DNA of 64,000 nucleotides, from NCBI GenBank assembly GCA_918797485.1, contig CAKKNE010000001.1, positions 6,138,001 to 6,202,000 of the forward strand. Direction: 5' to 3'. Below the pieces are notes generated by a model that made no database searches, was not told the DNA's origin, and worked only from the letters and a program-made list of their open reading frames with translations. The position numbers and the translations under genes were made by a program. This DNA comes from Pelagomonas calceolata. Its lineage: Eukaryota; Sar; Pelagophyceae; Pelagomonadales; Pelagomonadaceae. Below, one piece after another: positions 3,085 to 57,842 of the stretch (positions are counted from its first letter, which is position 1; every line of letters begins with the position of its first letter).

Positions 3085-6000
3085 TCACCCGTCCGGCGTC
3101 CCCCCCTCGTGCGGCCGCACCTTCGTCGGCGCGATGCGGTTGCAGTCGTCGTTCGACGGCCAGCGGATTTCGTAGAACTTGAGCTTGCCGGCGCCGTCCT
3201 TCACGAGGTCGTCGACGGTGCCGCGGTACCATCGGGCGCCTGCGCGACGCGACCAACTCAAACGCGCCACGACGGACACAACACACAAACAGAGCGCGCG
3301 CGCAACACACACACGCGGGCGAATCACGCTCAGGTCCATGCCGAACAGCGCATCCACATCAGCCCCCACCGCAAAAAAGTCAGCGGCAAAGGCCGAGAGC
3401 CGGCGCTTCGGCGGCTTCGGCGACGCGGCCGGCTTGGGCCGCTTCTTCTTCTTTGACGGCAACAGGTGGCGGCCGTCCTCGTCGGCCGGCCGCACGGAGC
3501 GCGCCGCGCAGGACTCGACGCGGCCGTCGTCCAGGACCACGTCGTAGCCGACCGCCGACGAAGACTTCACGCGCCCGAGCACCCAGACCTCCTCCTTGCG
3601 GCCCTTGCGCTGGCGCACCTCGACGCGCTCGCCGACCTGGAGCGCCGTCGGGAACAGGCCCCCGAACTCGTCGACCATGTCCTCGTCGTCGTCGCGGTCG
3701 TCGAGGACCTCGTCCTCGCCGCCGCCGTCGCGGCGGCGGCGCTGCCGCTTCTGCGCGCTCCAGCACGTGGGCGCGCCCCTCAGGAGCTGGTCCAGGGTCA
3801 GCGTCGCGCTCTTGCCCGCGGCGGGGCCGGTGTCGAAGACGACGGAGTACATCGTGGGCGCCGGCCCCGTCTCGGCCTTCCCATACAACTCGGTCGTGCG
3901 GCGCCGGCTGCGCTGCGGCACGGGGTTCGAGACCGTTGTGATGACGCCGCTGCCCTGGCCCACGACCTCCACTCTATCACCGGGCAGGAACGCGCCGTCG
4001 GTCTTGTCGTGGCCCGGCCGCCGGCTGCGCGGCGACCCGTCGCGGCTGTGGCTCCCGCCGGCGTCGTAGCCGCCGCCGCGCGCCGCCCGCTTCCTGTGTG
4101 GACATCAAACGTCACGCCCCCGTAACCGCGTCGATTGATTCCCACACGGCCCGCCACAGCTTCTTCTCCCACTTCCGCGACGCCTTCCAGGCGACCTGGA
4201 ACTCCGTCTCCCACAAATCTTCTTGAATATCGATGGCGTCGATGCCCTCCGGGGGCTTGTACGTGACCCTCGTGCAGGCCTGGTACGTGCCGTCCTCGGC
4301 CTGCACGCGTCCCACCCCGATGACCACGCCGTCGCACGGCACGTCGTCTCCATTATGTAAAGTGACGTTCGTCCGCACGAGATCGCCGATGCGCTCGCCC
4401 TCCAGCAAAAACGCGCCCTCGTCCTGCGGCGACGGCGTCCACTTCCCACTATCGTCCCGCGTCCAGTTGCCGCCCTCCACTTCCAAGGAAGACGCGTCCC
4501 TCCTCTTAAACGCCTCCCACCTCACAAACGCGTCCCGCGCCGCGCCGAACTCGTCGTCGCCCGCGTAATGATACAAGTCCTGCTGGAAGCCGTTTTCATA
4601 CACAACTCGCACGCACGCGACCTGGTCCTCGTCGTCCTCGTGTATTAGTAATGAACCGACGCCGATGACCTCGCCCTCGAGCACCGTGCCGTCCACGTTG
4701 CGCCAGACCTTCGTCCCGATCAACGGCCCGTCCGTCCTAAAGTCCTCCCTATCTTCCTTGGGCACGACCCACTTCCCCTCCTTTTTCGTCCAGTCGCCCT
4801 CGAACTCGACCGGCGTGTCGAACTTCTTCACCGCCTCGCGATGTAACAGGTCCGCGTCCTTCTTCGCCTTCTTCTCCGCTTCCACGTCCTTCTTCGACCG
4901 CGGGCCGCGGCCGCCCTCGACCTTCACGGCCTCGAGGCGCTTCGTCACGCTGCGGTCCTCGCGCTTCAGCGTCGAGACGGGCGGCCGCGGCACGGACAGC
5001 GCGGGCGGGCCGCCCTCGACCCAGCACGTGCCCTTGAGCTCGTTCGTCGGCGAGAGCTTGTAGAGCTTGAGCTTCTTCTGGAACTCGGCTTTGTTGGTAG
5101 TACAGTGCGCGCAGCCGACGAGCTTGCAGGTGTGCGGCGGCGTCGTGTCCGACAGGTTCGCGAGGATGGCGTCGCGCTCGGCGCCCGGGTCTCCCACATA
5201 TTCGTGGCGGTACGACGGCCTAAGTTTGTCGCGCGTCGTCGGCGCCCAGGTCCCGGCCTTCTGGGCGAGCGAGCGCCCTCTTACGTCCGTCGTCGCCTCA
5301 TCCTTGTCGGCCTTGTGGTTTCTGGCGGACGGGCGCCACCGCGGGCTCCTATCCCGACACTTGCCGAACGTCGGGTGCATCGTGATGGACGTGACTCGTC
5401 TTCCTGTGGACGTCAATTGCGCCGCGACGGTCTCGGCCAGCATCCAGCCCAGCCCGATGCCCTGGAAGTCCGGCAGGATGACGACGCGGTGCTCCCGACT
5501 ACCGCCGCTCGTCCCTTCCCCGGCGCCGGGCATGCCTAGAGCTGTGTTGACACTATGAAAGCCGATGGGCCGGCCGTGCAACCGGAGCTCCCAGCTCCAG
5601 CAGCTCTTGTTGATGTCCTCGGTCAGGTAGTGGTGGCGCTTGAACGAGTCGAAGTGGTAGTACGGGCACCGCTGCAGCTGCAAGTTGACCGAGGGCGCCG
5701 CGAAGAGCTCGTCGAGCCGCGCCACGTCCGTCGTCGCGGGCTCGTCGGTCGCCGCGAGGCGATCCGCGTGTAGTAGTACTAAACAGCCCGTGCGCGTGTC
5801 GCCCGTGTCCTCAAATACGTTGCCCTTCTTGTTCTTCTGCCACCAGCACGTCGTCACGACCGCCGTCATGAAGAGCCAGCGCGGCTTCAGGAAGGCCACG
5901 ACGTCCTCGTGGACTGTGGCGCAGACGACGTGCTGCAGGTTGTGCTGCGCCACGTAGGCAGCGACGCCCGCCGCGACGCGCCGCGCGAGGGGCCGGGCAG

Positions 6001-7159
6001 CGAGGCTCGTGAACTCGTCCAACACACATTCGGACGCCAGCAGCCAGGCGATCTGGCAGCGCGCGCGGCCGCACTGCGTCAGCTGGTCGATCCGCGACGA
6101 CCGCTCGTCGTCGTCGACGGCGGCGGCGTCCAGTCGCGCGGCCGCGTCGGCCTCGCCGAACTTGTCCCGGAAGAGCTTCGCGACCGTCGCGTTCATATCC
6201 CAGTCCGGCTCGCGCGTCGCGACCTTGCCCTCCTCCACACCTTTGAAGACGCGTCTCAGCACCGTCGTCTTCCCGGAGCCGCTCGGCCCGTGGACCACGC
6301 CGATGGACCACGCGCCCTTGATTTTCGACGCCGGGAAGTCCGGCGGCGCAAACACACAACTCCCGTCAAATTCAAAGTCGAACGCCGCCGACGCTGCCTT
6401 GGCGCAGGCGTCGACCTTGACCTGGCACTTGTAGTCCTCGGGCAGCTTGCCGTCGCCCAAGACAACTTTCTCGATGGCCTCGGGCTCGATACTATACGAA
6501 GCCGTGATCTCCCGCACGAGATCCGTCTCGCGATTCTTGCGGCGGTCGCGCGCGTTCGGCAGGCCGCCGTGCGTCCAGTCGCACGCGAAGGAAACATTCG
6601 GGCGTAGGGGCTTGTCCGTCGGGCGCAAATACAACGTGTCGGCGGCGACGTCGTAGCACCAGTCCGGCTGGAGGTACGCGCAGACGTCGTCGTGCGCCGT
6701 CGCGAGGACCAGGCCCGACATTCTTAGGCGCCGCGCGTATTTGCCGACCGCGCACGCCATGGACCGCGCCGCGTCGCGGTTGACCACGCACGCAAAGTCG
6801 TTCACCACACAAAATTGCTTCTGAGACGCGGCGTGGCGCGCGAGGCACGTCGCCACGTCGACGCGCGCGGCCTCACCGTTACTGAGGGCCTTGTGCGGCC
6901 GGAGCCACGACGGCACCGAGGACAGCCCGCACGCGCCCAGCCTCGCGGCTGCCTTGTCGGCGCGCTCCTTGTCGTCGCCCGTCTCGAGCTTCGCTAGGAC
7001 GGACACGACGGACTCGTCGTCGGGAAACGTCTGCACCGACAGGTTGTGCGTGTGGCCGAAGTGCCGCGCTAAGTATTGGTCGCGCGCGGCGTCCGCGCGG
7101 CCGAGGACGAGGCCGACGCTGAAGCCTTGCGGCGGGTCGGAGTTGTTGGTGCGCGTCAT
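3085..7159 (-). CDS. ABC ATPase fused to a GNAT acetyltransferase and Tudor-like repeats
   Basis: Proposed exons on the minus strand are 7159-4158, 4093-3315 and 3239-3085, giving 1311 residues in frame. The first ABC half has a signature-like LSNGE (about 92-96) but a degenerate Walker A (GRADAARD) and Walker B (VVNDF). The second half is intact: GPSGSGKTT (about 281-289), LTQCGRARCQ, CVLDEFTS, and an H-loop near 407. A GNAT domain follows (DFQGIGLG near 554-561, then MHPTFGK and SPRW). This order matches the family I remember as COG2401 (ABC ATPase fused to a predicted acetyltransferase), common in phages and prokaryotes. The C-terminal half carries about five Tudor/KOW-like units, each starting G-x-RV or similar. 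The first intron is an introner; the last (3240-3314) is tentative. ATG 7159 is chosen over an upstream GTG. Substrate unknown. Confidence 0.75.
4086..4157 (-). mobile_element. Introner, 56 bp, with duplicated target; forms a 64-bp intron
   Basis: The element spans 4094-4149 on the minus strand, beginning CCGTGTGGGAATCAA and ending TTTGATGTCCACACAG, which are inverted copies of each other. It is flanked by GTGGCGGG (4157-4150) and GAAGCGGG (4093-4086), matching at 6 of 8 positions. Splicing from the GT of the first flank to the element's terminal CACAG removes 64 bp and joins two frames that are otherwise separated by a stop, fusing the ATPase-GNAT part to the Tudor-like part. Confidence 0.75.
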
Positions 7160-7963
7160 TTTGTGAATGTGTTCTCTCACCGTCCGAGAGCTTGCGTCGG
7201 TTTCACGGCGCTCACGATTTTCCGGGGCACGCGCGTGCAGGAGCAGGGTCCGGGTGTATGGCGCCGCCGGCCGAGCAACTGTGTGGGCGCGCCGCGCTCT
7301 CGGTCGCTCGTTATCAGCCGGAACCTGAAATGCTCTCCCGAGCTATTCGCTGCGGGAGGGTAACGCAGCGGGAAAAGCTGCAAGGGCAGTGATGCCTGGC
7401 TTTGTCGCTACGCTTTCGCAGCTTCTGCTGCGTCCCGGATCCACTAGGAGCTCCGTGCGCAGCGTTTTTTGCCAAAGGCTGAGCAGCAAATGGGTTTGGG
7501 CCAATCCTGCCCGCTAAATCGAGTCCGATCTCTTCGAAAGTCTCTTCAGGCTTCGTCAAGCGCCCAACCCGATGTGAAAAAACGACGCTTCGAGGCAGGA
7601 AAAAAACGTGACGGGTTTCTAAGGCATCGTCGTCGACCATTTTGCAACCAAAGAGCATCGATAGCTCGCAGCGCTGCTGCGTGATAGATTTTTCGCAGTG
7701 CTGCGTATAGTCGCAGCATTGTTGGGACGCTGCGGACCGCTCAGGCTCTGCAGCACACGATTGCATCAAGCAGCCAAATATAAATTATTGACGCTCGCGA
7801 CGCACGAGTGGCATTGAGAACCCGCGAGGAGCGTAGCAGGACGCCTCTCTTAGAACGTGACAGAGAACAGAAGAACTAGACCAGAGACCCGAGACACGCG
7901 GCACTGCCGACAGCGCTAGCGCTTCAGACAGCAAACAACAGACGGAACGCACAGAAGCGTTGC
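7160..7963. other. Divergent spacer between the ABC-GNAT gene and the helicase
   Basis: About 800 bp with no convincing gene; ORFs here have no domain-like features and unnatural composition. It is less GC-rich than its surroundings and holds a TATA-like box at 7779. No copy of the GCTAG-type motif is present, although a GCGCTAGCGC palindrome lies near 7912. Confidence 0.6.
7779..7784 (+). promoter_or_regulatory. TATA-box-like sequence of the helicase gene
   Basis: TATAAA in an AT-rich stretch, 180 bp upstream of the helicase ATG at 7964. It is one of few clear TATA boxes in the window, and this gene lacks the GCTAG-type element. The transcription start is not visible from sequence. Confidence 0.4.
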
Positions 7964-10900
7964 ATGCCCCCCCGCCGCGTCCTCGGCCCCGGCGGCCGCC
8001 GCCGCCTCGGCCCCTCCAAGGAAGCCACCAAGTCCATCGGCGCGGGCGGCGGCGGCTCGTCCAAGGCTGATGGGGGAGCGCGCCTCAAGGGCAAGATCGC
8101 CGTCCTCAAGAGGGCGGAGAAGTTCGGGTTTATATCACCTCTGACGGACGGCGCCTTCGACGACGACGCGCCGCCGCCCAAGAAGCTGTACTTTAGCTTC
8201 GCGGACTGCGACTGCGACCCTTCGCGATTGAGGGAGTGGCAGCGCGTGACCTACGCGCCGCCCGCGCAAGGGACCGACCGGGCCTCGCACATCGAACTGG
8301 ATCTCGTTGGTTCCACGCCACATTTAGATGAAACACGCTTCGGCCACGTCGACTCCATTTTGACCAATGTGCGGAGCCACGACAGTACCAATGTCGAGCG
8401 CCAGTCGCTGGCGGCCTGCGACGTGACGGCGGCCACTACTTTCTGCGTGTCGCTGGACGCGCCTTCCATCCTCCTAAGGCCGAACGAGGTCTGCGAGGTG
8501 CTCTCTAGGGATGACCTGCCCTTCAAGGCCGTCGAGAGTCTGGTGAAGGCCCTAGCTAGTCAAGACGCGGCCGAGGCGGCGAGTGGGGCTGCGAGAGTCG
8601 TGTACCAGACCTGCTCGCGCTCTCCGTTGTTGTTGAGCGGCCGGGGCGCGCGCGCCATGCTGCTCCGAGCCGGGTCTCGTAGACAGCAGCAACAAGGCGA
8701 CGCGGCGATGCTGCTCCAAGTGACGATCGTCGCGGGCGCGTGCCTGGACGCTGATAGATCTTGTTATGAGAATTTACAAGATCTCCTCGAGCAGATCCGG
8801 GATCTCGTGGACGAGCGCAAGCGCGAGTCGTCCCAAGACTGGGTCGCTGCCCGGAAAGAGGCCCTCGCCGTGTTGCAAAGAGCCGACGCGTTACGAGCGG
8901 ACGCCAAGCGGCTGACGTCGTCGTCCGACGCCGACTTTCGACGGGTCGCGCCCTTCCCTTCCAGAAGAGACGTCACGCTCGCGCGGCCGCTCGAGGATGT
9001 TGTTAAAAATCAGATCACGGGCGAGCAGGCCTCGGCCGAGGCCTATGTGGCGACGCACTTCCATTTACTCAGGGCGGACTTCCTCGGTCCCTTGCGAGAT
9101 GGACTAAGAGCCGTGTCGAACGGCGAGTCGTCGAGAGACGTTGACGTGTACCGGACGTGCGCGTTGCGAGGTATCATACAAAGAAGAGGCTTACTACATC
9201 GCTTCGAGTGCGCCGGCGACCGGGAGCCCTGGGCCAAAGCGTCGTGGGCGAAGGCCAGCGAGGGCCAGCGCAAGGGCCGGCTGATGAACGGCGCGCTCGT
9301 CATTGTGGTGGACCCGACGACGCTGGGGGAGCAGACCTGGGTCTGTGCGGTTGTTCGATCTAGAGAGTTACGCAAGGACAAGAGCCTGGTCATTGATTTG
9401 GAGGTCGAAGGGGCGTTGGCTTTTGGGAGAAGCTATTCCCTGGTCGAGTGCACCTCCACATACTTCGAAGCGTATCGATGGGTCCTGAACTGCCTCCAGG
9501 CGGCGGACCTCGAAGCGTTCGCGCAGAATCGAGTATTACAGACATTCCTACGTCTACCGGAAGAACCACCTCCACCGGACTACGTGTTTCCCCAGGACGA
9601 GTACGTGTTTGGGACGGAGAAGCGACGCGTTTTAGATGAGGATGCCTGGCCCGTCGATGGCTGGGGGTCCCTCGACAAGTCGCAGGCCGCGGCGGTGAAA
9701 CGAGCACTCACCAAAAGTGTCGCCGTGATCCAGGGCCCGCCGGGAGCTGGCAAGACGCACGTCGGGCTGGAGGTCATGCGTTTGCTGCTCGCAAATGTCT
9801 GCGGCGCGAAGGCGAAGAATCCTTTTGTCGTCATGTGCGCGACGAATCACGCGTTGGACGCCTTCCTCGAGGGCGTGCTGGAGTTCGAAAGTAGCATCGT
9901 GCGCGTCGGCGGGCGTTCGAGTTGCGAAGCCTTGGCGGATAAGAATTTGAGGGAACTCTCAAAAGCGTGGCGCGAGATGGACGAGCGCGCGGCCGAAGGA
10001 AGTTTGTTGGGGGCCCAGCACGTCCGCGGGCGCCGGGCGCTGTACGGACGCTTGAAGACGCTGGAAGAAACCATTACCAAACTCGCGAAGGAGGCCCACG
10101 CTTTGTCGAAGGGTGCTTCCTTGCAGGACCTCGAGCAGTGGCTCCGCGAGGGGAGTGATGAGGACGACTTCGACCCGCTCGGCGTCACGGAGGAGCACCT
10201 CAGAAGTTTGTGCTCGCGACCGTGCAAGGACGTCCTCGGGACGTGGCTCGAGAGCGACGCGCCCGAGAAGTTACTCGCGAAGCCGCCCGACATCCGATCC
10301 ACCAAAAAAGTCGAGCCCAAAGTGAACACGACAGAAGAGGAGGAGCCCGACCCCGACGCCGTCGATACAAAAGCGGCGATGGCCGACGAGGCCGACGACG
10401 TTCCCAAAAAGCGCGAGGCCGTCTTCTTGGACATCGGCATGGCGCCCTTTGTCAATGCAGGCAACCGCAAGGCTAGGCGCCGGGGCAAGCGCGGGCCGAA
10501 CGCGCCGCCGCCTCCTCCAAATGTAGGTGAGGACGTGTGGAGCTGGCCTTTATTGCAAAGACGCCAGGCCTGGGCGGCCTGGGGCTCTGCCATTCATAGG
10601 AGAAGGATTAATGAATTAAGGTCCTGTGCCGCTCGGGCGGAACGGACGCGGCGCGAGATGGAGCGCTTGGATCGAGACGTCGACGCGGAGGTATTGCGCG
10701 CTGCCAAAGTCGTCGGCTTGACCACGACGTCCGTCGCGAAACGACGCGATTTATTAAGGTTGATCGGCGCGGAGGTCCTCATCTGCGAGGAGGCCGCCGA
10801 GGTGCTCGAGGCGCACGTCCTCGCGGCCGTCTCGGCGACGACGAAGCATGTCGTACTCATTGGCGACCACGAACAATTAAGACCGGGCACGGCCGTCTAC

Positions 10901-11704: not shown

Positions 11705-11734
11705 TGTTTACTTAGGTTATTAAGTTGTCATGGT

Positions 11735-16318: not shown

Positions 16319-19300
16319 TTAGGACTCCAGCTCCTCGGCCATGGGTTCGGTAGCAAGGAAGTCCGCCGCCGTGACGTCCTTGAGCGCGGCAGAGACGGCC
16401 TCGCGATCCTGCTTCCACCCCGGCCGCGGATCCGTTTTGTTGTTTACCGCGAAACCGATTACGTTGGCCAGGGATCGCCAGGCGTTATTCCGACGATTTT
16501 GAGCAGTTGCACTACTATCAGTACGCAGTTTTTCAATGGCCCTGTCTAGGAAATCGTGCGCGAGTTCTTTGGGGAGCGCCTTCGTCGAGTAGCACGCCAC
16601 AGCGCCCGGGTGCGTGTGCGTGCGCGCGACCATTTTCTGCCACTGCGCCGCGAGCTTTTGCACTGCCTCCCGCGAGGCGTCCGCTATCTTCGCGTCGTCG
16701 TCGCCCTCGTCGTCGGGCGGGCCGACCCCGCGCCGCGCCATGACCCGACGCAGCTCCGTCTCTGTCAGGTCAGCGAGGGCGGCGTCTTCCGCCAGTTCGA
16801 TCACGGCGCCTTCGGCCAGTTCCCGCGGCGTCGGGGCTCCCAGGTGGAGCGGGCGCGCCAAACCATGAGGTATATTCCAGTCGCCCCCCCCCCCTTTTTT
16901 TTTTTTACGTTGGGAGTTCATTTTTCTGTATGCTTCTTCGAAGGTGCAGTAATCAAAGGCCTGGTTCATGAACCGCTCCGCCGTGAGATAATTGCCGGCT
17001 TCTGGGAACGCGGGCGGAACAGTAGCGTTGGTCGCGTCGAGCGCGACGCGCAACATGCGCAGGTGCGGCGTGGCGAAGCAAGGGGCTAGCCAATTCAAAG
17101 CAGCCACGCCACGGGATGTTCCCCAGTCGGCAAACGGATACACGACATGCTGGTAGCCAGTAACGGCGCGGTTGTAGCGCCAGTGCGGCGTTCCGTCGGC
17201 CGCCAACCGGACGCGGTTCAAGCACTCTTTGGAGATGAGGTGCAGCTTATACTCAAATGCGTACAGGTCACGGGGCCCACTCAGTGATGCGAACACGACT
17301 TTTTCTCTATTGAAAATGACAACACCGCGCCGGCCGGCCTGGCCGCTGATGATGTGTCGAGCCACGACGAAGAAGGATTCGGACTTCTCGTAAGCTCTGT
17401 CGCCCATGCGCTTGCGGAGTTTCTCGAAGGCATTTCTACACGTATCTCCAGGCCATACAGAGATGGAGCGATCTAGACCGAAGCGCTTGAGGCGCTCGGT
17501 GAAATTATTCTCGGGCGGGCCCAGCGCCGAAGCGAGGCCGACGTTAGGCTCAATGGCCCAGGACGGCACCGGCAGGACGACCATGTATTCCCAGATCGAC
17601 TCACATGCGCTGTGGTGGCGCAGATCTCCAGTGCACTCGTAGCAGCACACGCTGTCGCCGCGCTTCTCGTAAATCTTGACGCCACTCGCGACCTTGCGCG
17701 GCGAATCCGCAACCAGGTGCTGCTCGCATTCTTTGTCAAAGTAGAGATTTTTAATCGACACCACCCGCGACTCGAACGAGTACCACTCCAGCGCCGTGCT
17801 CACAAAGCCCTGCTCGCCGCACGTGACCTCGGTGCTGCCAAACATACGATCGAGCCAGAAGAGCGCGTCACGCAGATCCATAACATCGACGCCATAATGT
17901 TCTATCGCGAGGAATTGCGCAAACTTAAAACCGGTGATGCACGTGCACCAGCCGACGCTCTCGGCGGTCCCGGAACGTAGCGTGAGCGCAATGCGGACGA
18001 GTTCCTTGGCCGGCCCTTCGGGGAGCGCCCTAAAGCACTTGCGAACGCGCTCATCTATAGAAGGATCGTCGAGCAGCCGATCCCAGATCTCACAATGCAT
18101 GGCGAAGCTGTGCGAGATGCGGGGACCATTATGGGCAAGCTGCGTTTCATCGGGCGCCGAGCCAAAGGCCGTGTTCCACTCGGTCAGGGGCAGCACGTCC
18201 CGCCCCAAGAACGGTATCGTGCACATGTCGACATATGTGCGCAGCGGCCATCCCGGCATGCGCACGCCATCGGGCCGCCACGCAAATGGATCGAACTGTG
18301 TGGACATCAACCAGTGACTCAGGTTACGGACAACGTCGCGTCGATGGCGTGGCCCTCTTTTTTGAACAATAAATAAGGCACTGTCGTCGACGGGCTGGAT
18401 CAGGCTTCTACTTTCAGAATCTTCGTGGACTGGCAGCGGCCACTGACTTAGTTTCACGTTCGCCAGTTTCCGGATTGCGTGTATGAGTTTTCCACCTTCT
18501 TCATTTGGTCTGTGGATGACGGACAGGTTCGCATATCTACGGCGAAAGATCTGCCCGTTGGCAACGAGCTGCCTCATGGCATCCTCTTCTCCAAGTTGTT
18601 CTACCAGGCGTTCTTTTTGTCTGCCCGTATAAGCATCAAAAGCCTCCCACAAAAGAGGCTCGTAGAACACATCTTCGAAAGCTTTGCCGCACGCGACGGC
18701 GATGCGTTGATAATCGGAGTTCATGGATACTTCGTGCCACTTCTTCAACTCTTCAGGGTCCCAGGCAGCGGCCTTGACGACTTTGATGTCTGCTTTCTCG
18801 TCAGGCCACCGGAGGCGGTCCAAAGAATCATGAAACACTAAGCGGACTTCGAGCTCGCTGTCTAGGGCCCCTCGTCGAGTACACCGAAGCACAACAGCGT
18901 CGAACCACTCAGACGGTCGCGTCTTGTCGTTCCCCAGATACGTGTTCACTTTTATCTTTGAATTGACGGCCGGCGGCAGATTCGGGTACTCGTTGCCTTT
19001 CTCTCGTAAAGCTTCATGATCCGGATCAATCAAGGACGCGCGCTCGTGGCCCCAGAGGCTCCGGAGCCTCCGGACCTTTCGATACATCGCGACGTACCAG
19101 GGCTCCGCGGTCTTCTTTGCCGGCATGTGCGGGTGCGTCAGGTACTTGAATATGCGTTTCAATATTTTGTCGTCGAATCGTGTTTCTCCCGCTAATAACG
19201 CGCGGAGGCCTTCGCGCCCGCCTTCTCGCTCCGCAAAGGACAGCCGGTGTCTTCTGAGCCGGTGTCTTCTGTTATTCACGGAGAGCGTCGTCCACACTGA

Positions 19301-24761: not shown

Positions 24762-26321
24762 ATGATGCTCGCGCGTGCATCACTGCGACCGCTGCGCTGC
24801 GCAGCCAAGCGCTCCCTGGCCGTCGACGCCGCGCAGCTAGAGGACACCGCAGCCCAGCTCCTCAAGCGCCACGGCGTGGCAGGCGTGCAGGCCGCAGTGA
24901 TCGATGCCGGAGAAGTCATCCCTGTGAACGGAGGCCTGGCCGACGTCGCAAGCGGGACGCCGGTCGCCTCTACCACGCTCTTCCAGCTCGCGAGCTTATC
25001 AAAGCCGGTCGCGGCGCGCCGCGCGCTCACTCGCTTCGACGCCGACGCGGCCGTAAACCCATTGCTGGCCGCGCACGGCTCGCCCTGGCGCATCGAGGGC
25101 CAGGACGGCTGGGGCGACGCCGTCACCGTCTCCCACTTGATCGACCACTCGGCGCTCGGCCTGCACTACGTGCCGGGCGTCCCGGAAAGCGAACCAAAAC
25201 CTTCGTCGCTCGAGCTGGTCTCGGGCCGGGCGGAAGAGTGGGGCTACGCGGCCGTCGAGTGCGTCAAGAAGCCGGGCTCGGCCTTTGCGTACTCGGGCGG
25301 CGGCTTCCTCGTGCTCCAGCACCTCCTCGAGTGCGCGCTCGGTCCCGAGAAAGCTTTGGCGCCGTGCGGCGGCCGCTTCGGCTACGAGCTGGACGGCGCG
25401 CCGACCGGCGAGAGCCTCGTCGACTTCGGCTTCGACGTGCCGGAAGGACAGACGCACGCGGTCGGTTATCGCGACGGCGGCGAGGTTCTGGGTAGGCTCT
25501 GGTTCCCGCCGTTCGCCGCCGGCGCCATGGGCACGGCGAGCGGGCTGGGCGAGTGGCTCTGCGGGCTATCAAAGGCGCACCGGGACCGCGGCGACGGCAT
25601 GCACGCCGTCGCCAGGTTGATGCTCGAGCGGCGCAGGGATTTGGGGGCCGGCGCCTTCATGGGCGCGCGCATGGGCCGCGGGATTTTTATCAGGGATGTC
25701 GCGTCCGGTGCTGTTCCGCGCGAATATTGAGCTCGACGTTGACGCCATCGACGGCATCGTTCCATGCAGGCGATCCGCGGAGCCCGGACCGGTGGATGCT
25801 CCACCAAGCGGCCAACGACGGGTTTACGGCTGTGTGGAAATCAAAATTTTACGGCGCGTTCGTGCTGAATCATCGCGTCGTCCTCCACGCCATCGACGCG
25901 ACGCCTGCTCGATGGCGTGGCGATGCTGGTTCCTCGCCGCTCGACCGAGCCAGGACGGCCGCGCCATCGCCGAGAAATGACAAGTGAAGAATTTTCGGGT
26001 GCACCCGACACACTTTGATTTTTACACAGGTTTAGGGGATTGTTTCTGGTCTGCTTCGATGGTCCTTCCGCCGCGAACGGTCCCCGCGGCCTCGTCGTCC
26101 TGTCAAATGGCGATAACGACGCCATGCTCTTCAACATGGCCATGGCGCGGGCCATGCTCGAAGCGCTCGAGCCGGCCGGCTTTGACCTGGGCCGCGTCCC
26201 GGACGTCGCCGCGGGCTTCGACACCGCGGGCATGCGCCAGGAGGAGATCGTGAACCTCGGCTTCAAGGGACTCGTCCTGGACGCGTTCGCGGAGGCGCCC
26301 GGGTTCGAGCTCGGGAAGTGA
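24762..26321 (+). CDS. Serine beta-lactamase-fold hydrolase (LACTB-like), three exons
   Basis: Exons 24762-25707, 25770-25821 and 26030-26321 give 429 residues. The catalytic SxxK is SLSK (about residue 78), the second motif is YSGG (about 177) in place of Y-x-N, and the third region is HQAAND. The start MMLARASLRPLRCAAKRSL is Arg-rich and suits mitochondrial targeting. Intron 1 (25708-25769) splices ASG to DPRSPDRW. Intron 2 (25822-26029) is an introner, and removing it gives QAANDGF-RGLFLVCFDG, the continuation expected in this family (GFRGLFLV then a VVLSNGDN strand). Without splicing the ORF stops at 25730 and lacks the last third of the fold. Substrate unknown; such enzymes are often esterases or peptidases. 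Confidence 0.8.
25822..26037 (+). mobile_element. Introner, 200 bp, forming a 208-bp intron
   Basis: The element 25830-26029 starts CTGTGTGGAAATCAAA and ends CTTTGATTTTTACACAG, near-perfect terminal inverted repeats. Flanks are GTTTACGG (25822-25829) and GTTTAGGG (26030-26037), an 8-bp target duplication with one mismatch. The donor GT is the first base pair of the upstream flank and the acceptor AG is the element's end. A perfect 12-bp hairpin (CCACGCCATCGA at 25885 with TCGATGGCGTGG at 25909) lies inside. Its first 85 bp match the copy at 46647. Confidence 0.85.
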
Positions 26322-46392: not shown

Positions 46393-46440
46393 GGTTTAGA
46401 GACCTAAAACTTATAAATATGAACACGATCGATGCTGGGG

Positions 46441-47969
46441 TCAGTAGAGCTGCTCGACGCCCGACCCCTTCGCCTTCGCGTCGGCGCGCCGCTCAGCCCG
46501 CCGGAGCAGCAGGGGGATCGGCACCGCTAGTAGAGCGCACGCCGCGTTCGTCAGGAAGGGCAGCCCGCCCGGGAAGCGGCGGAAGCCGCAGGACGCCGCG
46601 AAGAGCGAGCCCGAGACGACTGGAGTGAAGATGCGCGCCGCGGCGCGCGTCGACCTGTGCGGAAATTTTACGGTGCGTCCTGAATCGCCGCGTCGACCTC
46701 CACGCCATCGACGCGACGCACACTGGTTGATTTCCACACCGGCGTCGACTGGATCAGCGCTAGGTTCTTCGCGCGCGCGTCGGCCGTCGGCGACGTCCTT
46801 GCTACCAATGTGGCTGTGGACGTGTCCGAGATGCCGGCGCCCGCGCGGTTTATCAGGTAAAAGAGCGAGTGGAGCGGCTGCGCTCGCACGATGCTTTGCG
46901 AAGCCATGCCCAGCGACAGCGTGAGCAAGCCGAAGCACGACGTCAGGTGCGGGCCGATGCGCCTGACTAAGGTCGGAAAGAGCACCTGGGCCGCGATCGT
47001 CGTCAGCGCGCCGGCCGAGAACGTCGCTGATAATTGAGGTTGATCATACCCCATAAACTTGGGCGCGAACAACCCGTAGCAGTAGACCGACAGCGTCAGC
47101 GACCAGCCGACGACGAGCGCGATGGACCGGAGCGCGAACTGCGCCGACACGCCGGGCAGGATCCCGGGCGCCGGCTTCGTAGGCGCGACTTGCTTCTGCT
47201 CAACCTTGAGCGCCGGCTCGTCCTGGGACGCGATTGCTTGTGCTTTTGCGGCTGTTGCTTGGAAGGACCTGGCCAGCACGCCCAGCACGCCGGCCGCGAA
47301 GACCGAGGCCGTCAAGAAGACCGCGCGTAATCGAAAAGCCTGGGGCACGCCCGCCGCCGCGAAGGCCGACATGAGCAGGGCGGCGCAGGACGGCCCGACG
47401 ACCACGGCCATCTGCGACGACGCCGCGACGCGCGCGAGGGCCGCGGGCGCTTGCGCCGGCGCCACGAGCTCCGTCGCCGCGGCCTGGGCCACGGGCACGC
47501 TGGCGGCGAAGGCGCCGCACAGGAAGCGGCAGACGACGATCGCCGCGACCGACGGCGACATGGCGATGCCGACGTTGCCCAGCGTCGCGCCGGCCAAACA
47601 GAGGCAGAGCGTCTGGCCGCGGCCGCCCGCGCCGCCCGACCGTCGCACCAGCAACGGGCAGCAGACCATCTGGGCCACGCTAAAGAACGACGTCGCGAGG
47701 GCCACCTCGACGGGCTTCGCGCCGAGGCGCGTCAGGTGCAGCGGCAGCGTCGCAATCGCAATACCCTCGCCGATCATCTGCGCAAACACGCTCAGCGTGA
47801 CCGGCAGCAGCGCACGCGGCAGCGGCGCGTCGGCGTCGGCCTCGATCGCGACGGCCGCGGCCCGCGGCGGCGCGAGCAACTTCGGCGGTTTTGCCAGCGG
47901 GGCGAGGGCTGGGCCTCGGAAGGCGTATGTGCATTTTAATGCTGTTGCGAGGAGTAATAGTAGGCGCAT
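46441..47969 (-). CDS. Plastid-targeted major facilitator superfamily transporter
   Basis: Exons 47969-46750 and 46654-46441 give 477 residues. The leader MRLLLLLATALKCTYAFRGPA carries the A-F junction of stramenopile plastid signals. Twelve membrane helices are countable, starting LPVTLSVFAQMIGEGIAIATL. The loop after helix 2 (RSGGAGGRGQTL) is a loose version of the MFS G-x-x-x-D-R-x-G-R-R motif. Removing the 95-bp introner at 46655-46749 restores the last helices: NLALIQS-TRAAARIFTPVVSGSLF and later LTNAACALLAVPIPLLLRR. Without splicing the ORF stops early in introner sequence. Substrate unknown; probably a metabolite or drug-type carrier of the plastid envelope. Confidence 0.8.
46647..46749 (-). 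mobile_element. Introner, 87 bp, forming a 95-bp intron
   Basis: The element 46655-46741 is flanked by a perfect 8-bp duplication GTCGACGC (minus strand, 46749-46742 and 46654-46647). Its ends on the minus strand read CGGTGTGGAAATCAACC and AAAATTTCCGCACAG, inverted copies of each other. The GT donor is the start of the duplicated target; the AG is the end of the element. The core CCACGCCATCGACGCGACG is shared with the copies at 25822 and 18296. Confidence 0.9.
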
Positions 47970-50188: not shown

Positions 50189-50227
50189 GCCGTACTGTAT
50201 ACATTGCTTGTTAAAAAACACACAGAA

Positions 50228-51919
50228 CTAGGCCAACGTCCCCGCCCGGCGCATCTCGTCCAGCAGGCGAAGATGCTTGTCGACGGGCGCGATAGCGTGG
50301 GCCACGGCCATCCCCGACCCGCACACCGCTGGGACACCTATACCGGGAAACGTCGAGTCGCCGCAGCAGTAGAGCCCGTCGACCGGCGACGCGTGGCCGG
50401 GGAAGGTTTGCTTTCCAGCAGGCCAAGCGCTCCCATAAGTTCCTTCCGGCCGCCGCAGGAACCGTTCATGCGTGAGCGGCGTCCCGATGGACGAATAAAC
50501 AGCGCGTTCGCGGATGTCCGGGATAAACTCTTCCACGGCCTTCCACAGCACCTCTCCCCTCTCCTCTTTCTTCTCCCGATACGCCTCTCGGTCCAAACCG
50601 ACCCAGTCCGCGTAGGGCTCCGTCGCCGGCAAGTAGGCGTGCAGGACGTGGTGGCCCGCCGGCGCCGCGTCTTTGTCTAGCACCGACGGAATCGAGATAA
50701 ACACGAGGTTATCATTCGCAGTCACATCTGACCAATCCCGGACAATGATGTGGTGCACCGCCAGCGGATCCAGGCCCGTCGCGTCGAAGCCGCAGTGCAG
50801 ATGTAGAAATGAGGGCGTCTTCGGCGCCGTCGCGTCGAGGCACGACCCCACGGTGCCGTGCACCGACGCCGGAAGGAGCCTCGCCGTCGCCCAGACCGGC
50901 GCGTTCGACACGACGTGGGTCGCGCGGCGCTCGGAGCCGTCCTTGAGTCGCGCGCCGACGGCGGCGCCGTCTTCCACAATGATCTCGTCGACGTGCGCCT
51001 TTGTCAAGATTTCTCCGCCGTGCTTCGTGATGGCCCGCTCGAGGGCCGCGGCGATCGCGGGGGAACCGCCCATGGGGACGTCCATGACCGCGCCGTCGGC
51101 GAAGAACTCCTTGATCATGAACGACACCGCCGCCGCGGACGTCTCCGTGACCGGAAGACCCGAGAGCGCGAAAGCTAGAAAGTCGAACCAGCGGTAGACC
51201 AGCGACGTGGGCTTGATGCCGGCCGCGTCGAGCACGCGCGAGAAAGGCCCCGACGGGTCGACTCCTTTGAGCAGGAAATCCGCGCCGAAGCGCGCCAGGA
51301 GCGTCGGATCTAGCTTCGGCACGTAGCTCGACACAGCAGTTTGTAAGGCGCCCACATCGGCCCGGAGGGCGATCGGCGGGACGCCAGCGACGAGCGCGGC
51401 GAGCGCCTCGTTCGCGGCGAGGAGTTGTCGCCAGTCGGCAGCCGCCGACGCGCCGCCGAGGCGTCGCAGCTCCGCCTCGAAGGCCCGCTTGTCGCCGGAC
51501 TTGACGCGAAAGACGCCCTCGGGCACGTACATGGTCCACTCGTTGTATGACTTCCATTCCGGCGTCTCGCCGACCGCGTCCAGTACTTGGCGCAGCGGGT
51601 TCGACGACGGCGCCGAGCAACCGCTAAACAGCGACGGCCCGCTGTCGAAGTGAAACGTCCCAGCAGCCGTGCGGCGCTCGAAGCCGTGCGCGCAGCCACC
51701 GATTCGGTCGTGCGACTCGCAGACGGTGACCGAGTAGCCGTACTGTGCTAGCAGTGCGGCTGCGCTGAGACCACCTAAGCCGGAGCCGATGACGACGCAA
51801 TCGCTGGTGCCGTCGCGTTTTGCTGCGGAGAGTTGTGGTGCACGCGTCGAATGCGTCGTCGGTGTGATGAATGCATCGCTTGTGCATGCCACGAGCAGCA
51901 GTACGACGGATGACAGCAT
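50228..51919 (-). CDS. Plastid carotenoid isomerase/phytoene desaturase-like FAD oxidoreductase
   Basis: 563 residues from ATG 51919; a more upstream TTG is rejected. The leader MLSSVVLLLVACTSDAFITPT has the A-F junction of plastid import signals. The dinucleotide-binding motif is DCVVIGSGLGGLSAAALLAQYG with ESHDRIGGCAHGF after it, and the C-terminal FAD motif is VDGLYCCGDSTFPGIGVPA. This is the CrtI/CRTISO family, which isomerises or desaturates linear carotenes. Sequence details (FHFDSGPSLFSG, GDSTFPG) fit the CRTISO-like branch better than the plant-type PDS/ZDS branch. Exact substrate not decided. Confidence 0.85.
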   Translation of the reverse strand: MLSSVVLLLVACTSDAFITPTTHSTRAPQLSAAKRDGTSDCVVIGSGLGGLSAAALLAQYGYSVTVCESHDRIGGCAHGFERRTAAGTFHFDSGPSLFSGCSAPSSNPLRQVLDAVGETPEWKSYNEWTMYVPEGVFRVKSGDKRAFEAELRRLGGASAAADWRQLLAANEALAALVAGVPPIALRADVGALQTAVSSYVPKLDPTLLARFGADFLLKGVDPSGPFSRVLDAAGIKPTSLVYRWFDFLAFALSGLPVTETSAAAVSFMIKEFFADGAVMDVPMGGSPAIAAALERAITKHGGEILTKAHVDEIIVEDGAAVGARLKDGSERRATHVVSNAPVWATARLLPASVHGTVGSCLDATAPKTPSFLHLHCGFDATGLDPLAVHHIIVRDWSDVTANDNLVFISIPSVLDKDAAPAGHHVLHAYLPATEPYADWVGLDREAYREKKEERGEVLWKAVEEFIPDIRERAVYSSIGTPLTHERFLRRPEGTYGSAWPAGKQTFPGHASPVDGLYCCGDSTFPGIGVPAVCGSGMAVAHAIAPVDKHLRLLDEMRRAGTLA

Positions 51920-52738
51920 CGTCAGCGTGTGAGACCACCCCAAATACGAATCACAGGCGTCGTAGCGCTGCTCGAAGCGCGTTGCTTCGCTGCTCTGGTG
52001 TCGTAAGATGTCTGAAAAGCAGCTGGCAAGGCGTGATTGGCAACAGCAGCCGTGTCAGTGGCGGACACAAATCGACGCGAAACCCGTTTTGCCGCATTTG
52101 GTTTGATTTTCGACGCGACGTGCAGCTGTTTGAGTATCCTTCAGTTCGCTAATGGTCCAAAGAGACAAATAGGACGACTCCTGGGGGGTGAAAAAATTAA
52201 TTTCTGGATGTCGCGATACTGACGACGGCACCATGGCGGGCGCGTCGATGGAAACCTGTCAATTCGTGGTCCTGAGGTCTCCCTGGGGTCGCCTAGGGTC
52301 GGTACTAGACGTGCGCAATCGCCTACACCGCATGCGCGGGCGCTTCCATCGGTGGATACATATCAGTACAGGTCCTCAGCCACAACATTGGCTGGAGCAC
52401 AAGTCCGCCAACTTTTCGATCCGAGCTCTCTGGGGAGCTCCAAGTACGGGCGCATGCGGCGCGGGCGACAACCCACCACCAGACCTATCCCAGAGGGCGT
52501 CCGCGAGCCGATCTACATCCGAAAAAAGTAGACAATTTGGACCCGATGGCGCCCCGTTCCCGTCAAAAACGTCAATTACCCGAGGGCCCCCAGTAGTCGC
52601 CGTAGCGGTCTCGTTGGACCCCATACTACCCCAACGATAGTCAATTACAAGTATATGACATCTACACCGCGAGAAGGGTACTTTTGGCTGCCCACGCTCG
52701 GGACGTGAACATCTTGATCTGGACCTCGCGTAAGTCGG

Positions 52739-53117
52739 TCGGTCATGAAACAAATGATCGCGTTATGGTCCATGGTGATGGTACACGGGCTGATGGTCGC
52801 AGGTCCAAGTATGCTGCTCGTCTTTGATAGATCGTGGGCCCGGGAGACCGACGACCCGCGCCGAGCATCTTTGGGTCTCGGAGCAATGTAGTACATGTTC
52901 AGCCCGGTCGGATGGCCCATCCCATCAAAAAAGCGCCTGAAACGCAAATTTATTTTATAACTCACCGGTCTGGGGCCAATTCAGTGCCCCGCGTACGCAC
53001 CGTCGTCCGCGGAGAACGGGCAAGTCGGTCGATTGTGAATAGAACAACGGCGTTATGGTCCATCTGGGTGGTGGCGTCGCTGATACTCGCGGGTCTAGGT
53101 TATTTGCCCGGTATCAT
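52739..53117 (+). repeat. Diverged duplicate coding two hydrophobic peptides
   Basis: Sequence around 52739-52815 is repeated at about 53029-53110 with many substitutions but shared blocks such as GCGTTATGGTCCAT. The same frame is conserved at protein level: MIALWSMVMVHGLMVAGPSM against TTALWSIWVVASLILAGLGY. The first belongs to an ORF of about 48 codons from ATG 52745; the second ends at a TAA near 53121. Confidence 0.55.
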
Positions 53118-53440
53118 CTAAACGCGCGGTACCAAAGTCGCCGATTCGCGCGGCTCTAACGGAGCACCTAAAATAGATGAGTATTTGTTCAATCGGCCTA
53201 GATGGACTCTACCACCAACAAACGGAAGGAAACGAACATAAACTTGGGAGTTGTCTAGTAGAATTCTTTTCCCGCCCTCCGAGCGCGGGCCGTCGGCTCC
53301 GGTTCCGTCGATTGTGTATGAAAACTGGGCTGGAGTTGATATGATGTATCATTTGGACGGTAGAAGGCGCCGTCAATCGCTGGTGTATTTTGGCGAGCCG
53401 CGAGACCTAGTGATCTAGCGTATCGACATACTAGGAATCC

Positions 53441-53482
53441 GTATATATGTATGTGTGTGTGTGTGTGTGTATACATACATAG
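53441..53482. repeat. TG microsatellite with palindromic flanks
   Basis: About ten TG units (53452-53470) flanked by GTATATATGTA and TATACATACATA, so the whole stretch can fold back. Confidence 0.9.
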
Positions 53483-53749
53483 TATACATGTATAGAGGCA
53501 TAGGCGGATGGCTTTTGAAAACAGACCTCTCCGACTGACCCCCGAATAGTGAAGTTCAAAGCTTAATTCCCGCTCTGGGCTCGGCGGCACTTCTAAGGAG
53601 GAGTTGGACGACGCCGCAGCGCAGATAGACTCATAGACTAATCCATCACGCATCATCTTACGCGAATGACGTGGGGTAGGGAGTAGGGAAGGGGAGTGGG
53701 TTCGCCCGAGAGCCCACGAGAAAACCGCGACTCGGTTGTCAACTGCGAC

Positions 53750-54403
53750 TCAGTTGTCGTTTTCTTCGCCCGCGGCGGCCAAAAGACCAGGAAAGATCAC
53801 GACGCCGAAGAACAGGCCGCACGCGATGATGATCGAATACAGCTGGAAGTAATACAGCTGTATGTACTCGTAGCGCGCGAAGGCCATGTCCTTCGACTCG
53901 TAGGTCACGCCGCCATGCGTCACCGAGACGTCGTTCACGTTCTTCTTGCGGTAGAACGCGATAGCCTGCTTCATGTTCTTGCGCGTGAGCATGTTCTTGC
54001 CGCCGCGCGTGGCGCGCGCGTTCGTGGCCTCGCTGCCGGACTCGTAGCCCTCCACTAATTTTCTATGGGTGTTCTTGCTCTCGCGGTCGACGCGCGAGCC
54101 CGGCCTCAAGACCAGGCTGCCGAAGAGGTCCGTGTCCGTCTTGCTCGCCACGAATAACCCCGTCGTGAGCGCCGCGAAAAGCGCCGCGACGACCAGGAGC
54201 ACGAGCCACGGCCGTTTGCCGACGACGTTCTTGCCAAACCAATAAAAGGCGCGCTCGCCGGGGCCGCGGTCCGCGTCCGCCGCGAAACTTGGCTTGGTGT
54301 GCGAGAGCTCGCGCGACGCCGTCGTGGGGTAGCTCGCGTCCTCGACGGACTTCACGGCCTCGACGTCGGCCTTGGTTTCCTCGGCGACGTCGGCGGCGGA
54401 CAT
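53750..54403 (-). CDS. Short Patched/NPC1-like protein (N-terminal part only)
   Basis: 217 residues, ATG 54403. The segment RAFYWFGKNVVGKRPWLVLLVVAALFAALTTGLFVASKTDTDLFGSLVLRPGSRVDRESKNT is the typical entry of Patched/NPC1/Dispatched RND proteins (first membrane helix, then the T-D-x-x-x-L-x-x-P-G-S-R region). Those proteins have about 1000 residues and twelve helices. Here a short luminal part (YESKDMAFARYEY) leads to one more helix (LYSIIIACGLFFGVVIFPG) and the stop. So it is a truncated gene, a dedicated two-helix derivative, or exon 1 of a gene whose later exons are not visible in the gene-poor DNA beyond. Confidence 0.6.
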   Translation of the reverse strand: MSAADVAEETKADVEAVKSVEDASYPTTASRELSHTKPSFAADADRGPGERAFYWFGKNVVGKRPWLVLLVVAALFAALTTGLFVASKTDTDLFGSLVLRPGSRVDRESKNTHRKLVEGYESGSEATNARATRGGKNMLTRKNMKQAIAFYRKKNVNDVSVTHGGVTYESKDMAFARYEYIQLYYFQLYSIIIACGLFFGVVIFPGLLAAAGEENDN

Positions 54404-54921
54404 TTTTCTGGTGTTACCAGCGTCGTCTGCCGTCGCTGACTAGCGTGCGCGTCCGCAAGCTCAGCTTCTGGTATGCTCTGAGAGTTTCTATCGCTCCCAA
54501 CGTTGGCCGTGAGTTTTCTTTGGTTATCGCGATTTGCGTCGTATCTCAGAGAACTCGAAAGCGCTCTCACAATCCAACCTAAGCTCCTCGCTGGGTAGCA
54601 CGAGGATACCAAAAGTCGTGGGCAAAGGTCCCCCAGCCAGGCCAGCCATTCGCCAGACGCATCCGACCGCTTCCCGTCGCAACACGCGCTGCAGATACCT
54701 CTCTCGCGGAAAACAGAGGTAAACGCGGGGGCTAGGCTAGCGACTGTAAGACACTAGCAAGCAAGTAAGCTTGGCTGAACTCGCATAAAACGAGCATATT
54801 ATTAGCCTAGACCTGGTTCTGGAGACAGCATTCATCAACCCTTCGACCGTTGCGACCAACCCTTCATCGCTGCGACCGGTGAGGGAGCAGCCAGGCACAC
54901 AGCACATTGAGCACAACACCA
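54404..54921. other. Divergent spacer of the Patched-like and ABC transporter genes
   Basis: 517 bp with the reverse motif copy at 54736 and no other feature I can name. Short ORFs in it lack domain content. Confidence 0.5.
54736..54758 (-). promoter_or_regulatory. GCTAG-GTCTTAC motif, copy 9 (reverse)
   Basis: Reads GCTAGTGTCTTACAG, spacer, GCTAGC on the minus strand, 164 bp upstream of the ABC transporter ATG (54922) and 333 bp from the Patched-like ATG (54403). Confidence 0.6.
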
Positions 54922-57842
54922 ATGGGCAAAGGCGGCGCCCTACGAGCAGGCCTCAACGGCCGCTTTAATGTGGGAGGCCGCGTCTCCGTCTTCCAAATAC
55001 TGTCGAGAGGCAGCGCTGCTCGGCGCGTTGTAGCCGTCGGCGTCTTGTTGCTCACGCTGGACGTTATCCTGAGTGCAGCGGCGCAGTGGCTGGCGGCCGG
55101 CCGACGCATTCATTTCTCGTACAGCCTGCGCCACGACGCCAGCGATATAGTCGGCCTGGCGCTCTTACGCGTGCTGGTGCTGCCCACGTTGGCCACTGTC
55201 GCGCACCGATCGTGGCACGCGGTCTCGCGCTACTCGGCGCGCGAGGATGGCTACGAACGTCTAAATGATGACAATGAGCTCGGCTTACGCAAGGCGAAGG
55301 CGGACTTAAGGCGAGATCTGTGGCTGGGGTTCTTGTTCGTGGTGGCGTCGGTGTGCCAGGGCTACGTCGGCGTCAAGCTGTGCGTCTACGATCTGGAGGA
55401 CGTCCCACAGGAGCGACGAGCGGCATGTGTCAGCGTGTATTCGTGCCTTCGACTGCTCGACGGCGTGACTCTCCCCCACGCCATCGCCGCGACTCACAAA
55501 ATGCAAAACACAGGCCTTCGCCGTCTGCGTCGGCCTCACGACTCTACTCATAAATGCGGAGGCGTGGCTCCTCAGCAACCTCGTCCAGTCGCAGACGCGG
55601 GTGCTGGCGGCGCTGCGACCCTCGCTGCACGCGCACGCGCTCGAGCTCAGTCAGACGACGTCGAACTGGTGTGACATCTGTGGGATTCGTATCACGACGC
55701 CGACGCTGTGGCGCTGCCATCCATGCAACTTCGACGTCTGCCCGAAGTGCTGGGAGGCGCGCGACGAGACCACGGCGTCGCCGCTCCACCAAGACGGCGC
55801 GCAGAACGGGCGCGGCCGGGGCCGCGGACGCGGAGGCGGCGGCCGGGGCCGTGGCCGTGGCCGGGGCCGGGGCCGCGGCGGCGGGCGTCCGAGCCCGGCG
55901 CAGCAGGCCGAGGTCGAGATTACGAACTGGGACATCGTGCGCGAGGCGGCGAAGCTCATGCGTCCCTCCTGGTGGCTCGTGGCAACGGCGCTGGCCTGCG
56001 TTGTCGCGTCGGGCGTCGCGAGCCTGGCGCTGCCGTCGTACCAGGGCAAGATCATCGACGCCGTCTACGCTCGAGATCGGAGCCGCTTCCGCAAGATGCT
56101 CGAGCTCTACCTCGTCTTCTCGGTGGGCACGGCGGCGACGCAGGCCCTGCGGGCGCTCTGCTTCCAGGTCGTCGGCCGGCGCCTCGCGTGCGCGCTGCGG
56201 AACGAGCTGTATGCCGCCATCTTGAGGGCGGAGATCAGCTACTTCGACTCGACGGCGAGCGGCACGCTCACGAGCCGCCTGACGCAGGACGTCCGCCGCG
56301 GCGTCGAATTTCTGCTCGACGGCGTGGGCGTCGACCCGGTCGATGGCCACACAGGTCAATCAGATGACATTTCCTTTGACGACATTGCTCGGGTCGCTCG
56401 TCGCTGCGGTTATCTCGCTCATCGGCGGCGTCGCGATGGCGTTCTACACGTCGTGGCGCCTCTCCATGCTCGCCTTCACGACGGTGGGACCGATCGTGCA
56501 CGTGACCCAGGCTTATGCCCAGTGGTCCAGAGATCAGAATCGACGGATCCTAGCCCATCTCGGTGAGGCAAATGCCGCGGCCACTGAGGCGTTAGCGAAC
56601 GTGCGTACCGTGAAAGCGATGGCTACTGAAGATCGCGAGGCGAAGCGCTATGCCGACCACACGATGGCCGCGCGAGACCGCGGTATTATCGACGCCTGCC
56701 TGAACGCGCTGACGTCTATCCTCACGAATATTCTCGATTACGGCTCGGGCTGGCTGATTCTCTTCTACGGGGGCGCGGAGGCCATGAGAAAAGGCTCTGG
56801 CCTCTCGGCGGGCGAGCTCGTCACCTACCAGCTCTACTTTAACAAGATCCAGTCGTCCTACAACCAGCTCGTGAATTTGCTCTCGTCATTTACACGTGCG
56901 GGCGGTGCCGCGCAGCGTGTCTTGGGCCTTTTGAAGGCCATGCCGTCGACGGACGCGGGCGGTGACGCTCCACAGGGCGGCGGTCGCGGCGCGGCTTTAG
57001 CCTACGACGACGTGCACTTCACCTACGCGTCGCGGCCCGACGCCCCCGTGCTCAAGGGTCTGAGCCTCGACATTCCGGCGGGGTCGACGCTCGCCTTAGT
57101 TGGCCGCTCCGGCGCGGGCAAGACGACGGCGCTCAACCTCCTGCTGCGGTTCTACGACCCGAGCCGCGGCCAGATCACGATCGACGGCGTGCCTTTACCG
57201 CAGCTCGACGTGCGCTTGCTGCGACGACAATTTGGTGTTGTCGCGCAGGACACGGAATTATTTGATACGACGATTTCCGATAATATAGCGTACGGCGCAG
57301 CGGCGGGCGTGGGCGACGGGGAGGTGCGCGAGGCCGCCGAGGCGGCTTTGGCTCACGAGTTCGTTCAGGCCTTTCCTAGAGGTTACGACACGCGGGTCGG
57401 AGAACGCGGCGTCCGGATTTCCGGCGGACAGAAGCAAAGGATATCGATAGCTCGCGCGTTCCTGAGAGATCCGCGAGTGCTCTTATTAGATGAGGCTACG
57501 AGCGCATTAGATGCGGAGAGCGAGAGCAAGGTCCAGGCCTCGCTCGACGCGCTCGTGGCGCGCGCGTCGGCGACGGTCGTGCTCGTGGCCCATCGGCTCT
57601 CCACCGTCCGCAATGCGGACTGCATTGCAGTCCTCGGCGAGGCCGGCGTCGTGACCGAGCGCGGGACGCACGATGAACTCGTGGCGAGGGACGGCGTTTA
57701 TGCAGCGCTCGTGCGAAGGCAGCTCCAGACGTCCGCGAATCAAATCACCGAGGCCCAGGTCGACGCCGCGGCGCAGGAGGTCGAAGTCGAGGCCGCCATT
57801 GATGAGCTCACGCCGGTCAGGGCCTCGACGCCCCCGAAGTAG
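54922..57842 (+). CDS. TAP-like half ABC transporter with a ZZ zinc finger and RG-rich loop
   Basis: Proposed exons 54922-55464, 55514-56290 and 56355-57842 give 935 residues. An N-terminal membrane part with about four helices precedes a ZZ-type zinc finger (WCDICGIRITTPTLWRCHPC then FDVCPKCW, about residues 232-260). A Gly-Arg repeat (GRGRGRGRGGGGRGRGRGR) follows. Then comes the ABC core of six helices (ITNWDIVREAAKLMRPSWW onward) and a complete nucleotide-binding domain: GRSGAGKTT, ISGGQKQRISIARAF, VLLLDEATSALD and VAHRLST. The NBD and helices fit the TAP/ABCB half-transporter branch, which exports peptides from organelles or loads the ER. Both introns are short (49 and 64 bp); splicing them gives SCLRLLDG-AFAVCVGL and SRLTQD-VNQMTFPL, as expected for the family. 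Confidence 0.75.
56291..56354 (+). mobile_element. Decayed introner-like 64-bp intron
   Basis: The intron from GTCCGCCG to the terminal GGCCACACAG has the same length (8 + 56) as the introner intron at 4094-4157. The inner ends CGGCGTCGAATTTC and TCGATGGCCACACAG resemble the introner termini. The downstream flank GTCAATCA matches the upstream GTCCGCCG at only four of eight positions. This donor was chosen because it gives the family's normal spacing between the LTxD and SWxLS motifs; shorter choices (52 or 31 bp) also keep the frame. Confidence 0.5.

Follow-up and report, generated by a model that had tools for sequence, protein, structure and literature searches.

A large family of probable introners in Pelagomonas calceolata, with a strand rule at the duplicated target sites

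Three genes in a 64,000-nucleotide stretch of the Pelagomonas calceolata genome (C1:6138001-6202000; hereafter the window) each contain an intron that is composed of a short element and one copy of an 8-bp target duplication. The elements are almost certainly introners: non-autonomous DNA transposons, similar to miniature inverted-repeat transposable elements (MITEs), that become introns. Two of the host genes encode recognizable proteins—a beta-lactamase-family serine hydrolase (PF00144) around the intron at 25822..26029 and an MFS transporter, with homologues carrying PF07690, around that at 46655..46749—while the protein hosting the intron at 4094..4157 had no Pfam match. The introns and their second target copies are as follows.

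4094..4157, minus strand: introner-made intron of 64 nt; element at 4094-4149, donor target copy at 4150-4157 (GTGGCGGG, sense strand)
4086-4093, minus strand: second target copy of the 64-nt intron, GAAGCGGG, with 2 mismatches to GTGGCGGG
25822..26029, plus strand: introner-made intron of 208 nt, nearly full-length; donor target copy at 25822-25829 (GTTTACGG), element at 25830-26029
26030-26037, plus strand: second target copy of the 208-nt intron, GTTTAGGG, with 1 mismatch to GTTTACGG
46655..46749, minus strand: introner-made intron of 95 nt; element at 46655-46741, donor target copy at 46742-46749 (GTCGACGC, sense strand)
46647-46654, minus strand: second target copy of the 95-nt intron, GTCGACGC, an exact duplicate

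An earlier reading of the letters without database searches (the sequence-only reading) had described the three elements, their termini, their flanking duplicates, and their register with the introns, and all of these were confirmed when checked on the sequence. Read in the sense direction, all three introns end in CACAG, and removal of each restores its protein with a seamless junction, as had also been claimed. Without 25822-26029, the serine hydrolase reads WMLHQAAND joined to GFRGLFLVCFDGP, which is continuous in 32 of 37 aligned homologues (37 among the 120 matches listed, of 144 in total); P0002-P0005 and P0024 stop or diverge upstream of this junction. Removal of 46655-46749 joins NLALI to QSTRAAARIFTP, continuous in 41 of 44 aligned homologues (94 found), the exceptions being P0124 and P0125, which read into an introner, and P0127, which ends earlier. 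Removal of 4094-4157 joins KWEKK to LKRAARGG, as in P0215; just this protein and the more distant P0216, of five matches, cover the junction, and P0216 differs there and has gaps just downstream. The near-identical proteins P0121, P0122, and P0215 are continuous over window junctions, a continuity that transcripts or spliced models and empty sites would produce alike.

The terminus of these elements, CTGTGTGGAAATCAA, is abundant genome-wide. A search of 32,445,274 bases in eight contigs for this 15-mer, as the sequence-only reading had proposed, found 1,562 exact occurrences (790 + 772) against 0 for a reversed-pattern control, and 2,516 (1,261 + 1,255) with at most one mismatch, for which controls gave 2 and 0. 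A variant shorter by one base occurs 53 times (control, 0). In the published RCC100 assembly, six nuclear contigs make up 32.4 Mb alongside single plastid and mitochondrial contigs, and duplicated regions occur at the ends of contigs 1 and 5, as well as at those of contigs 3 and 6 (excerpts of PMC9481584). Genome-wide terminus counts contain doubles from duplicated contig ends, and a rare terminus variant found at both C1:7277 and C5:7276 fits the duplication of contig 1 and 5 ends. Within the window, the internal core is enriched (16 occurrences at ≤3 mismatches versus 1.54 expected, 4 of them exact), while a 13-bp terminus is not (12 at ≤3 mismatches versus 8.98 expected; a count of 12 or more arises in 17 of 100 shuffles). 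Since the terminus count in the window is not significant alone, we rely on the genome-wide count.

Target duplication was assessed, with no filtering of the flanks, in loci L001-L030 and L076-L094, which were chosen to surround exact left termini on the C1 plus strand. These loci hold 55 distinct exact left termini, 49 of which have a right terminus no more than 260 bp away. The sequence-only reading had named a lack of further copies with flanking duplicates as grounds against itself; such copies were found, with 38 of the 49 terminus pairs carrying an 8-bp duplication at ≤1 mismatch, compared to 0.85% of 2,352 cross-pairs. Flank mismatches across the 49 pairs were 0 in 23, 1 in 15, 2 in 3, 3 in 4, 4 in 1, 5 in 1, and 6 in 2.

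A further regularity concerns the orientation of the duplicated target relative to the host gene. We compiled 53 copies with paired termini, i.e., terminal inverted repeats, and ≤3 duplication mismatches from 347,070 bases (including overlapping loci; duplicate copies removed), and called the coding strand of their joined flanks with a codon model for which 58 long open frames from the same genome served as the training set. Both flanks scored as coding in 35 copies, and in all 35 the duplicated target begins on the sense strand with G followed by a pyrimidine (GY) and the sense-strand end of the element is CACAG. The sequence-only reading had given the donor as GT, which holds for 29 of the 35 coding copies, while the remaining 6 use GC instead. 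GY on the antisense strand occurs in 9 of these copies, so that 26 have it on the sense strand only and none on the antisense strand only (P = 3e-8 for 26:0). Random coding positions (n = 1,738) begin with GY on the sense strand in 284 cases (16%) and on the antisense strand in 312 (18%), and the 7 copies with one coding flank all have sense GY. An integrase is blind to gene direction, so the 26:0 ratio suggests that insertions that could not be spliced out have been lost. Around exact termini genome-wide, GY lies at position −8 in 987 of 1,562 cases and RC at position −1 in 1,002 of 1,562, each against a background of 17%. Of 42 genic copies, 19 have the asymmetric CCAGTG arm next to the donor and 15 have it next to the acceptor, with 8 unassigned, indicating that each terminus can act as acceptor. 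Intron phases 0, 1, and 2 are represented by 13, 5, and 17 copies.

Internal shortening is common among the copies: element lengths range from 56 to 206 bp, with 14 of 53 at ≥198 bp. A full-length element together with one target copy measures 203 + 8 = 211 bp, which matches the ~210-bp intron-length peak published for P. calceolata and likened there to Aureococcus introners (excerpts of PMC9481584). The AG has been lost from 7 of 26 right ends on the donor side and from 0 of 16 on the acceptor side (one-sided P = 0.024). Shorter and more degraded relatives were also located, three in the window and one elsewhere on C1.

18296..18352, no strand assigned: decayed copy in which a single terminus, with 1 mismatch, accompanies the core on the minus strand (18335-18352)
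55465..55513, plus strand: 49-nt intron, probable decayed introner, with introner core CCACGCCATCGCCGCGAC and terminal CACAG
56303..56354, plus strand: 52-nt intron, probable decayed introner, keeping only the GT donor and a CCACACAG end
L095:3501-3552 (C1:3439300-3439351): 52-bp introner with both ends and duplication GTGCGGGC/GTGCAGGC

The introns at 55465..55513 and 56303..56354 belong to one ABC-transporter-like gene, and removing either makes the protein read like its paralogue, the L095 protein (compared by eye). The 49-nt intron does carry the core that the sequence-only reading had noted there. Its claim of decayed relatives stood for the 52-nt intron at 56303-56354 and in part for the copy at 18296, where a terminus and the core were found and neither a second terminus nor a duplication was recognized. 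The 52-nt and 49-nt introns look like end stages of decay. The 52-bp copy in L095 likewise sits in a gene that apparently encodes an ABC transporter, similar to the window gene near 55 to 57 kb. A second intron of the serine hydrolase gene lies upstream of the first, at ~25690 to 25768, where the metagenomic gene calls P0002-P0004 stop inside it; with its GCAG end and a core-like stretch, GACGCCATCGACGGC, it may be an old introner.

These observations suggest a cycle in which a presumed transposase would recognize the ~15-bp terminal inverted repeat, insert the element, and duplicate 8 bp of target. Since both termini, read outwards, end in CACAG, the element would provide a 3′ splice site in either orientation, after the T-rich stretch TTGATTTCCACACAG. 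Where, on the sense strand, the duplicated 8 bp start with GT or GC, the first target copy would act as the 5′ splice site, and splicing out one target copy with the element would restore the original message. Coding insertions that lack GY on the sense strand would break the gene and be eliminated. Internal deletion would then shrink the copies from ~203 bp to introns of about 50 to 65 nt, and the terminus on the donor side, having lost its use, would be freer to decay.

Could the copies instead be an ordinary MITE family that inserted into genes at random, leaving them broken, with nothing spliced? MITEs that have terminal repeats and make 8-bp duplications are widespread, and the case for splicing rests on sequence rather than on RNA. 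However, such a family would not account for sense GY and a CACAG acceptor in all 35 coding copies and no antisense-only case, for AG loss at donor-side ends and none at acceptor-side ends, for frames that still code on both flanks in 35 of 53 copies, or for the continuity of P0121, P0122, and P0215 over the junctions, and we consider it very improbable. Introns copied by reverse splicing of RNA, as has been proposed for some fungal introner-like elements (excerpts of PMC9860276), would place copies exactly at introns, as seen here; 15-bp terminal inverted repeats and 8-bp duplications fit DNA transposition instead, both orientations are used in genes, and 11 of 53 copies lie without coding flanks, which makes copying through RNA the most remote of the explanations weighed. 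A closer variant keeps the introner mechanism and attributes GY mainly to a target preference of the transposase and only partly to selection for splicing. All 11 copies without clear coding flanks, for which strand calls mean little, have GY on at least one strand, compared to 31.5% of background 8-mers (P = 3e-6), which leaves room for an added target preference, and antisense GY is slightly elevated in genic copies (12 of 42 versus ~18%; P = 0.06). Yet an integrase blind to gene strand would not yield 26 sense-only and 0 antisense-only copies, and a strong two-sided bias should push antisense GY well over 29%; a predominant role for target preference is therefore rather unlikely. Target preference and splicing selection may coexist, and the 11 copies may lie in transcribed noncoding sequence.

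Copy number, duplications, the strand rule, and protein junctions together support the introner interpretation that the sequence-only reading had offered. Several points weigh against it. We infer actual splicing from the genomic sequence, and the coding strand is a codon-model call rather than an annotation. Among the sampled left termini, 6 of 55 have no partner within 260 bp, and the flanks of 4 of 49 terminus pairs differ by 4 to 6 mismatches. The copies are not very young, the 14 full-length ones being 89 to 97% identical to the consensus. No transposase with introner ends was found in the genome with six profiles and inspection of long elements, and the evidence for presence and absence of copies in relatives, described below, consists of predicted proteins and not of DNA. 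Purging by selection and the direction of decay are likewise conclusions that we infer.

The sequence-only reading had proposed comparing orthologous loci in other strains; made at the level of predicted proteins, this comparison points to introner sites that differ between relatives. One such site lies in the serine hydrolase gene.

25331..25338, plus strand: empty site GTGCGCGC, where the window exon is uninterrupted and P0005 reads into an introner

This empty site begins with GT. P0005 (JGI source) is identical to the window protein at 178 of 192 residues over the shared exon; after LLECA it continues with PVWKSKFYGAFVLNHR and onward, and 48 of 52 residues are identical to the element at 25830 read in that frame. 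At the 46.7-kb site, the introner read into by P0124 and P0125 differs in length from the window copy.

We ran six transposase profiles against the genome in search of a mobilizer. hAT transposons make 8-bp target duplications, the same length as those of the Pelagomonas introners, and the hAT profile (PF05699) had a single genome match, a 714-amino-acid open frame with a weak dimerization match (22.3 bits; cutoff, 21.4) and no match among solved structures. It lies in the following element.

L075:4050-7700 (C4:4499549-4503199): hAT-like element of 3,651 bp, with 20-bp perfect inverted ends CAGGGCAGCAGAAGGGCAAG and an exact 8-bp duplication TTGCTCGC

We rejected this element as the mobilizer on account of its ends, CAGGGCAGCAGAAGGGCAAG, which are unlike the introner CTGTGTGGAAATCAA; no introner terminus at ≤3 mismatches lies within the 9.9 kb around it. 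No hAT transposase was found within an element bearing introner termini. The MULE, PF12762 (Merlin-type), and PF13359 (Harbinger-type) profiles had no genome match while their controls did match; the KDZ and P-type profiles (PF18758 and PF21787) had none either, and with their controls silent too this does not show absence. Two candidate long elements were also dismissed. The exact termini ~3.4 kb apart at C1:549074-552524 enclose a ~400-amino-acid open frame, which was not scanned for families, and the right terminus is part of another copy, 71 bp long, that has an exact duplication of its own, GCGAGGAC. The second interval, C1:3435928-3439351, is also bounded by exact termini ~3.4 kb apart and contains the L095 gene, its right terminus being that of the 52-bp L095 copy. 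Viral carriage was set aside as well: the exact 15-mer occurs once in each of 43 viral-contig stretches, which by our estimate we take as chance given how large the collection is. Of these stretches, 3 had a pair of opposed termini within 6 kb at ≤3 mismatches, and 0 had flanks matching at ≤2 mismatches. The RAG-like transposon of Aureococcus has 5-bp duplications and other termini (excerpts of PMC9435367) and was likewise rejected. It is possible, if doubtful, that wild Pelagomonas-like populations still segregate for introner gains and that the mobilizer, outside the six tested profiles, is a transposase of an unrecognized superfamily, is supplied by another element, or has been lost from this strain. 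If so, the strand rule would allow selection on new introns to be measured in ocean metagenomes.

Apart from the introners, a motif near CTAGCGGCNTGTAAGACACTAGCAA, counted at ≤1 mismatch over 13 bp, occurs in eight copies in the window (at 1635, 14122, 20692, 24643, 45469, 48916, 54745, and 61755) and 20 times in 182,719 bases from other loci. Within the window, no Rfam family attains its gathering score.

Introners are a leading genome-scale answer to the long-standing question of how new introns originate. The family described here is large, its target duplications are legible, the genome is compact, and one site or more appears to carry an introner in a relative and none in the window, so that intron gain, splice-site selection, and decay from transposon to minimal intron become countable in public data. 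Its value lies in a clean strand rule, a series of sizes that leads from transposon down to minimal intron, and signs that relatives differ in the sites occupied. Huff, Zilberman and Roy (2016) reportedly described the introners of Aureococcus anophagefferens and Micromonas pusilla as short non-autonomous DNA transposons in which one splice site is located in the element and the other comes from the duplicated target. The Pelagomonas family works in the same way and, judged by the features tested and not by homology of terminus or core, belongs with these introners; it differs in using GC instead of GT in 6 of 35 coding copies. Aureococcus introners are described in excerpts of PMC7789003 as having direct repeats, constant-length terminal inverted repeats, and canonical splice motifs. 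Among the DNA-transposon-type introners surveyed in PMC9860276 (excerpts), those of Symbiodinium microadriaticum share the terminal inverted repeats seen here but have a 4-bp duplication, compared to 8 bp in Pelagomonas. Introners were already indicated in P. calceolata by a single mention in the main text of PMC9481584, the only paper in the open library to pair introners with Pelagomonas or pelagophytes. Its available passages state neither a terminus nor a duplication nor a strand rule, and Supplementary Note 3 of that paper may already describe the family. The family is a well-supported addition to a known kind, the underlying principle of which is already published.
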